A stretch of DNA of 64,000 nt from Membranipora membranacea. Lineage: Eukaryota; Bryozoa; Gymnolaemata; Cheilostomatida; Membraniporidae. The notes under the pieces are model-generated. The model had not been told where the DNA came from. It saw only the letters and a list, made by a program, of their open reading frames with translations, and ran no database searches. Shown here in pieces: positions 34,901 to 49,258 of this stretch. Positions within the stretch are counted from its first letter, which is position 1. Each line of letters begins with the position of its first letter. The translations under genes and the position numbers were made by a program. The stretch lies in the NCBI GenBank assembly GCA_914767715.1, contig OU612068.1, forward strand, positions 6,634,001 to 6,698,000, given 5' to 3'.

Positions 34901-37900
34901 GTTTAGAATCTGTTGTCGGTCACACTCACCTCAATGTGATAATTCTGGATAGGGGACAATTCTGAAGTGTCAACATGGGGTTTGCCAGCATCTATTTGCT
35001 TCTGGAATACCATGTTCTCTAAAGTACTGATTTTGTAAAAAAATGTTTTAGGAATCCGAGGTGTTGGCCAGACAGAGTAATGAAATTCTCACAGCTATAG
35101 TACATGGTATGAAGAAGGATGAACCGAGCGACTATGTCAGACTAGCTGCCACAAATGCTCTTCTCAACTCACTTGAATTCACTAAAGCCAACTTTGACAA
35201 TGAGGTTCGTGTACTATGTAGTTGTGTACACCCATGAGTAGCTCAAAAGCACCTGAGTTGTGTTCTTGCCTTGTTAACTAAGTTCATAATATGAGGATAA
35301 AGCTTTTTCGTGGCAAAACGAATCCCAAGATTAATGAAGGAATGGCTAAAACTATAGACAGCGAATATATGTTGTTTTAGTAGTAGTTTGAGACTGTGGT
35401 GATTTATTCTGCTTTAGAATGAGAGAAATTTCATCATGCAAGTTATATGTGAGGCGACCCAATCAACAGACGTACATGTCAAGACTGCAGCTCTACAGTG
35501 TCTAGTGAAAATCATGTCAATACACTATAGCTATATGGAGACATACATGGGACCGGCACTATTCGCTGTAAGTATAAAAGTGTAGGAATGAGATGATCAG
35601 TAAAAAGTTATTTTGACTTACTGTGATAGTCGGCTGCTGATCAGCCATCATTAATTGGCTTTTGATAAGCTCTTCAAATTTAAATGCTGTTTAGAGGAAA
35701 TTTCCATGTTCACAAGTCAAGTCAGCTAAGACAGTTGCTTCATGAGAAGCCATACCCTCTGTCTTGGTGTTACATTTGTGATAGAATAATCATAGATTAC
35801 TGTATGGTTGATATCTGTTCGTTCTGAACTCTATCTATCCATCGGTGCTTTATATAGTACCTCTGAGAGTTGGCATTGCTTTTTCATAGGCTTTGACATA
35901 GTTTTGAGGCACACATCTTCATTGAATGTTCATTGATTTGATGTTAGTGGAACTGAATTCAAAATTGCGCCCCATCTTCTCATTAACCACTGCGAAATGA
36001 CGAGTTACTATAGGAAGGGGAACAACTGCAATTCAGTGCAAAATGGATGAAGTTTGACATAGTAGTCCTGTTTATATCATTTGGTGATTTTCAGATAACA
36101 ATCGAAGCAATGAAGTCCGAGATAGATGAGGTATCACTTCAGGGAATAGAGTTCTGGTCCACTGTATGCGATGAAGAAGTTGACCTTGGTATTGAACTAC
36201 AAGAGGTATAGTTACTAAAAAAGCTTGTTTTTTGAATATCATTTGGATTACCTTTGCAAAAATGCAAAAAATGGGGCTCGATATCTAAATGAACAGCGTT
36301 TGTGATTTGGCCAACTAGATGGATTTTGAGACAAAATCATTCAGCTGTAACTCGTCAATTTGAAATTGTCACAAGTCAAGTCAGCTAAGACAGTTGCTTC
36401 ATAAGAAGCCATACACGCTGTCTTGGTGTTACATTTGTGATAGAATAACCATAGAGTACTGTATGGTTCATATCTGTTCGTTCTGAACTCTATCTATCCA
36501 TCTGTTCTCTATATAGTACCTCTGAGAGTTGTCATTGCTTTCCATAGGCTTTGACATAGTTTTGAGGCACACATCAGCTCCCAGCTGTTTAATGATGTAC
36601 AGTATTTTGTTATGATTTAGTGCATGCAGTTCTGACCCATGACAGTTAGGAGCCAATTGTACCGCAAATTTTTACCAAAATACTGGCTTTCAACTGGAAA
36701 ATAACCTGAAGAGATGACAACCATTATTTATAGTCAACGGACAAATCATCTTTTTTCTGAAGGTTCATGATATCGGAAGGAACAAAGCAACACCGTATAT
36801 CAAATTGAGGGGAATTTTGTCCTGAATAAGAATATCAAGGTGGTAAAGAAAAAAAATCGGGGGCGGCCATGATTTTAGGTGAAACAAATTTTTTGGGGAC
36901 TATTTTGGGCCTCTTTCTCCCTTCAACAATAAATATTAACTTTCAATGCATCAATAATATGCATTGATATGATATATCCAGGTGTAAAAAATAAATTTTG
37001 TATCTTTATAAGATTCCCCAGAAAAACATTAAACAAATTTAATTTTTGCAAAATGGTGGTTGTCTCCCTGTTTCGGAGTTTTTTACACTCATCTGTTATT
37101 TACCACGGTTTTACTACATCCATATTGCACATGTGGGGAATGAGCAATATATGTCATATGCCAGAAGAGGTTCAGCAGTCAGAATCATTCCAACCTGAAT
37201 ATTCATCCTTATTTTAGTCTGGACAGTCGAAGCTGACGTCACAAGCACAGCGACATGACTGTGACATATGTGCCCCTTTTTTCGGCAGATGCATGCATGC
37301 GATCTGCATTGGGATGACCGCATGATGCAGTATGTCGCTGTCAATTCCTCTATCATGGGTTTAGTGCGGCGTAGCCAGCCCGAGTAATCTTCCGCTCATA
37401 GTCGATGTTTACAGATGGCTCGATTTTTTTATTTTGTTGAATCTTGAATTCAGTTTTTAAACATTGAATATTTTTTGATTATTATTAGATTTTGATGAGG
37501 TTGCCAATGATAGCTTATATCAAGGAATTTCATAAAGATTGTCACCTATATCTTGACCCTTAATTTCAGCAATTGTTGATCAGGACCCTAAATTAACTCT
37601 CGAAGCTTTAGCACAAACTGGGTAGCTTGCTGAATTGTTTCATTGTCCATCTCCAATAATACCAAGGCACCATGGAGCAGTTCTTAGCCTGACTTTGACT
37701 TGCAGTTTTCCCTTTGTTTCAATCTCAATGACCACTAATGAACACAGAGGTAGGCCGACTCGTAATAATGGATCTTGTGCGGATGTAACAAACCATCTAT
37801 CAGCAGTTTTTTCCCTCCCGGTTATCCACCGGCATGTCCTACTCTCAAATTATCCCAAATGAATTTACACAATACCTCCTAGCATAATTCATTTATTATC

Positions 37901-49258: not shown

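Follow-up and report, generated by a model that had tools for sequence, protein, structure and literature searches.

Five introns of the importin beta-1 gene of Membranipora membranacea each carry a single copy of an H/ACA RNA of the U19 type, and the two pockets of this RNA fit two uridines of helix 69 in the large ribosomal subunit. We consider it very probable that the five copies are guides for helix 69 which were duplicated within the gene and which likely form a dosage array. The array holds up and is for the most part unremarkable, apart from the divergent copy d, which is of interest.

Host gene and distribution of the copies

The host gene was modeled through its last 15 exons, from 35052 to the stop codon at 49258. 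These exons are separated by 14 introns, all with GT..AG boundaries, and give an open reading of 725 amino acids. The modeled protein matches solved importin beta-1 with 1037 bits in a phmmer search of the PDB, which bears out the host named in the preliminary description. With the Watersipora protein as the tblastn query, the match begins at 31990, continues into the last exon, and covers residues 1–880 of 883 apart from small gaps; its first two segments are weakly matched (31990–32046, E 0.036; 33860–33919, E 0.012). Among the best 120 of 1551 matches, the closest proteins are those of the cheilostome bryozoan Watersipora subatra (82% identity) and of Bugula neritina (77% identity), presumably a cheilostome bryozoan as well, and those below them are at most 70% identical.

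A custom covariance model built from copies a, b, c, and e (R1) was scanned over the window, that is, the whole 64-kb stretch of DNA analyzed. The features located in this way are as follows.

31990..49258, + strand: coding exons of the host gene, importin subunit beta-1 (KPNB1), from tblastn, the exon model, and PDB phmmer
35709..35917, + strand: copy a, in intron 35568–36094; SNORA74 42.4 bits, E 4e-8; R1 253 bits
35720–35724 and 35769–35773: 5' pocket of copy a; 35783–35788: its H box
35865–35870 and 35899–35903: 3' pocket of copy a; 35913–35915: its ACA
36368..36575, + strand: copy b, in intron 36206–43241; SNORA74 45.5 bits, E 5.3e-9; R1 243 bits
45480..45688, + strand: copy c, in intron 45318–45877; SNORA74 52.4 bits, E 5e-11; R1 255 bits; fold z −5.07
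46778..47026, + strand: copy d, divergent, in intron 46619–47159; R1 52.2 bits, E 4.4e-11
46788–46792 and 46859–46863: 5' pocket of copy d; 46873–46878: its H box
46957–46960 (GAGU) and 47008–47011 (UAGU): 3' pocket of copy d; 47022–47024: its ACA
47513..47720, + strand: copy e, in intron 47268–47824; SNORA74 44.4 bits, E 1.1e-8; R1 243.5 bits

R1 returned eight rows in the window, consisting of the five copies and three others (E 0.015, 0.57, and 3). The first two of these others lie across copies e and c, but on the − strand. Beyond the five copies, there is thus no R1 match under E 0.015 within the 64 kb, and at E 10 there is none in the remaining nine of the 14 modeled importin introns. 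All five copies are on the host sense strand. The arrangement described earlier, five importin introns with one sense-strand copy in each, is therefore what the model finds, and the custom covariance model that had been suggested as a check recovers d (E 4.4e-11) along with the four copies from which it was built.

Copies a, b, c, and e are alike in 186–195 of 209 columns in pairwise comparison (89–93% identity). The earlier length range of 195–208 nt does not extend to d, which is 249 nt long (46778–47026). Copies a, b, c, and d start 142–163 nt past the 5' splice site, and e starts 246 nt past it. The intron length is 527 nt for a, 560 nt for c, 541 nt for d, and 557 nt for e; for b it is 7036 nt, or ~558 nt when the transposon-like insertion in that intron is subtracted.

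This insertion of ~6.5 kb (36725–43202), in intron 3 of the exon model, is bounded by inverted repeats (36725–36865 and 43051–43202) that are 68% alike. Its − strand frames include an RVT_1 domain (within 41896–42453) and a zf-RVT domain below the Pfam cut-off (within 40355–41911). The sequence ATGAC occurs just outside both ends and may be a target-site repeat. Downstream of importin, a reverse-transcriptase frame is located on the − strand at 53172–53885 (RVT_1, 99 bits); the frames at 52500–53168 and 53770–54651 apparently belong to the same retroelement, judging by position only. At 56934–57016, on the − strand, there is a tRNA match that scores 32.4 bits, the gathering score being 29; it could represent a pseudo-tRNA or a SINE.

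Three further matches were treated as chance: a − strand row at 31230–31282 from a model of the 3' hairpin (R2; E 0.079), a − strand row over copy c from a model of the 5' hairpin (R3; E 0.97), and a BLAST match of 56096–56135 to the 3' hairpin of copy a (E 0.005 with loose scoring), the last because the covariance models return no row there at E 10.

RNA class and family

At Rfam gathering scores, the window has a single match, a tRNA. At relaxed thresholds, copies a, b, c, and e each match SNORA74 (U19; RF00090) best and over their full length (E 4e-8 to 5e-11), with scores of 42.4–52.4 bits that lie under the gathering score of 71 bits. In the list of matches from 4227 Rfam families, which leaves out two lower-scoring overlaps of the same clan, SNORA74 ranks first for all four of these close copies, and the only other H/ACA family listed is ceN48, at E 2 for part of c and E 9.1 for part of e. 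Copy d had no SNORA74 match at E 10 in a 321-base Rfam scan. Because the copies are below the gathering score or unmatched, we call them U19-type rather than members of RF00090 by Rfam's rule. With that wording, the assignment to the H/ACA class and the U19/SNORA74 type is supported.

The copies have the H/ACA layout of hairpin, hinge, hairpin, and tail, with an H box (ANANNA) and a 3' ACA, and this layout is weakest in a and d, in their 3' hairpins. The four close copies have the H box AGAAUA, as first described, and d has AGACUA. In all five copies, the model match extends two bases past the ACA, these being model ends and not mapped RNA ends. Folded unaided, copy c forms three hairpins (z −5.07). 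For a, b, e, and d, the hairpins were also folded in isolation; the 5' hairpins have z values of −3.7 to −6.5, and the 3' hairpins have values of −1.26 (a), −2.62 (b), −3.31 (e), and −1.99 (d).

Guide pockets and helix 69

The 5' pocket (AGUCA/GUUAC) forms 5+5 pairs with GUAACUAUGACUCUC, leaving the first U of UAUG unpaired, and the 3' pocket (GAGAGU/UAGUU) forms 6+5 pairs with it, leaving the second U of UAUG unpaired. We take GUAACUAUGACUCUC to be the helix 69 target sequence of the large subunit; it comes from the preliminary description and from general knowledge rather than from this species' own 28S. On this assumed target, the claim that both pockets fit two helix 69 uridines stands, with 4+4 pairs in the 3' pocket of d. 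The distance from the start of the right-hand pocket strand to the H box, and likewise to the ACA, is 14 nt for both pockets in all five copies, precisely the spacing that had been reported and within the 14–16 nt typical of H/ACA guides. The pocket sequences and the three-hairpin layout agree with the SNORA74 consensus.

Helix 69 forms the inter-subunit bridge B2a and touches the A- and P-site tRNAs, according to passages of PMC8307265, which also list yeast snR191 as the guide for pseudouridines 2258 and 2260 in this helix.

Divergent copy d

Copy d is matched by R1 over its whole length, even though that model was built on a, b, c, and e, and the bulk of the R1 score comes from the 5' hairpin (R3, 44.1 bits, E 3.7e-8). 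Compared with a, the two 5' stems of d have nine substitutions and keep 18 of 18 pairs, a degree of compensation with a probability of 0.00004 under uniform mutation and 0.0008 under transition-biased mutation. Both changes in the 5' pocket are G-U wobbles. The tip of this hairpin (46807–46840) is a near-palindromic 14-bp stem, as compared with a 5-bp tip in the other copies.

The 3' hairpin of d is more altered. When R2 was scanned over the window with a cut-off of E 10, it did not find d; within d's own intron, the 3' hairpin is its best match but a weak one (5 bits, E 0.83). Folded alone (z −1.99), this hairpin consists of a stem, an internal loop, and a stem, with GAGU facing UAGU. These strands form 4+4 pairs with the target, and UAGU is located 14 nt before the ACA, such that the same uridine is framed. 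None of 20000 shuffles of the intron stretch reproduced this arrangement, a result that overstates the case because the thresholds were set after the match had been seen. A reading of d as a 5' half only, suggested by a multiple alignment and by a whole-region fold, was dropped since the R1 match reaches a later ACA.

In an alignment that includes d, 20 of 62 pairs are changed on both sides, as compared with 5.8 expected, and none of 500 shuffles reaches this number; this alignment is biased toward the covariance model. When the comparison is limited to the four close copies, the pair changes are uninformative, being matched by 375 of 500 shuffles. Copy d is probably older than the other four. 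It keeps its 5' guide through the wobbles and the compensated stems, and its 3' half agrees weakly with the shared plan.

Function of the copies

H/ACA RNAs are trimmed from spliced introns and join dyskerin, Nop10, Nhp2, and Gar1. Once the importin beta-1 transcript is spliced, each RNA described here would be released from its intron and would assemble with dyskerin and its partners. Of the two target uridines in the helix 69 sequence, the first would then be pseudouridylated under the direction of the 5' pocket and the second under that of the 3' pocket. With five copies, this housekeeping gene could supply up to five guides per pre-mRNA, most likely as a means of raising the dose of one needed guide.

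A narrower reading, somewhat unlikely in our estimate, is that only one or two copies are active guides (c, and perhaps b) and that the rest are degenerating duplicates that persist by chance or through gene conversion. It does not conflict with the class and target set out above, and its probability overlaps with that of the preferred explanation. Copy c has the best SNORA74 score of the five, and there are mismatches in the 3' hairpins of a and e; in e, there are two of these next to the pocket, in the 3' upper stem, and there is also one wobble in the 3' pocket. Copy b has one mismatch, in the 3' lower stem. In the alignment of the four close copies, 30 columns vary within the RNA, comprising 1 of 30 columns in the pockets and boxes as compared with 29 of 176 elsewhere, a lower rate in the guide elements that is not significant (P 0.088). 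Against this reading, however, the pockets, H box, and ACA of a, b, c, and e are conserved except for that one column, and even d, the most divergent copy, maintains its 5' stems by compensation, which is unexpected in a dead copy and thus argues against decay.

The array might instead consist of two co-expressed subtypes, namely, four near-identical double guides and an ancient d, separate for long enough that its stems and 3' hairpin were rebuilt, with a specialized role, for example at a different 3' target or at one helix 69 site. We regard this as unlikely. More doubtful again is that d has been retargeted at its 3' pocket, so that the array would serve more than helix 69. The strongly altered 3' hairpin of d, its short GAGU/UAGU pocket of 4+4 pairs, and its weak R2 score are what such a change would look like, but those pairs still enclose the same uridine, with the ACA 14 nt away, an arrangement absent from the shuffles, for which the post hoc thresholds again apply. 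We retain five guides for helix 69 as the preferred explanation.

Flanking sequence and origin of the copies

The flanks of all 10 pairs of copies were compared on both sides over 20, 40, and 60 nt, with 5000 pairs drawn at random from the gene region as the reference. The upstream flanks of b and e are identical at 16 of 20, 22 of 40, and 28 of 60 positions, values attained by fractions of 0, 0, and 0.0008 of the random pairs. Fainter likeness occurs upstream of d and e (17/40, fraction 0.019; 24/60, 0.012), upstream of c and d (16/40, 0.034), and downstream of b and c (16/40, 0.036; 22/60, 0.043); these values are roughly as expected from this number of comparisons. Most pairs of copies have no flanking homology. 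The conserved sequence had been said to start at CACAA, a boundary that is not strict for every pair, since b and e share ~20 nt upstream of it (16/20).

We favor intragenic DNA duplication over retroposition because of the flank shared by b and e and because of the single host gene. An old split would have given rise to d, and later duplications to a, b, c, and e; gene conversion may keep these four alike. That the copies are instead a mobile snoRNA-derived repeat, spread by retroposition and with no guide role, is very improbable: although mammalian H/ACA snoRNA copies are thought to derive from retroposition, as a passage of PMC8178906 has it, and although most pairs lack flanking homology, we set this reading low because all five copies are in the sense orientation, one per intron, in a single gene, with every other R1 match in the 64 kb at E 0.015 or above, and against it there are also the upstream flank common to b and e, the retained guide features, and the 20 bases past the matches, in which no A-rich tail was seen by eye.

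Relation to known snoRNA arrays

Like U19/SNORA74 (RF00090) and yeast snR191, the RNA described here is a three-hairpin H/ACA RNA with both pocket sequences. The copies differ from U19/SNORA74 in scoring below the gathering score, in being five in number, and in being located in a protein-coding host. The host transcript of human U19, from the work of Bortolin and Kiss in 1998, reportedly has little protein-coding potential.

Arrays of one snoRNA within one host have precedents. Passages of PMC1821038 describe four DmSnR60 isoforms in the Drosophila mfl gene, one per intron, an array of one snoRNA in one protein-coding host, as here; DmSnR60, however, is of the C/D class, has another host, and is located in introns at 3' UTRs. 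Excerpts of PMC2653536 report three isoforms of the H/ACA RNA GGgACA4 in introns 6, 7, and 10 of chicken PABPC4. This is likewise an H/ACA isoform array in the introns of one protein-coding gene, differing from ours in its target (18S-36), its host, and its occurrence in a vertebrate. The same excerpts place two copies of GGgCD25 (U32) in introns 4 and 7 of chicken KPNB1, the same host gene as here, with the C/D class and the target being different.

The preliminary description had called the arrangement undescribed. Given the mfl and PABPC4 arrays and the hosting of snoRNAs by KPNB1 in chicken, that claim needs trimming. What stands is that no U19 array in importin was found in searches of the open-licence literature on importin/KPNB1 as a snoRNA host, on SNORA74, and on bryozoan snoRNAs. 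Neither the RNA type nor the manner in which it is stored is new, and five U19-type copies in importin beta-1 add one modest new instance to what is known.

Copy d offers a natural test of how far a double guide may change with its pockets kept. If the array does consist of two co-expressed subtypes, the dose of the helix 69 guide would be tied to that of the nuclear import receptor.
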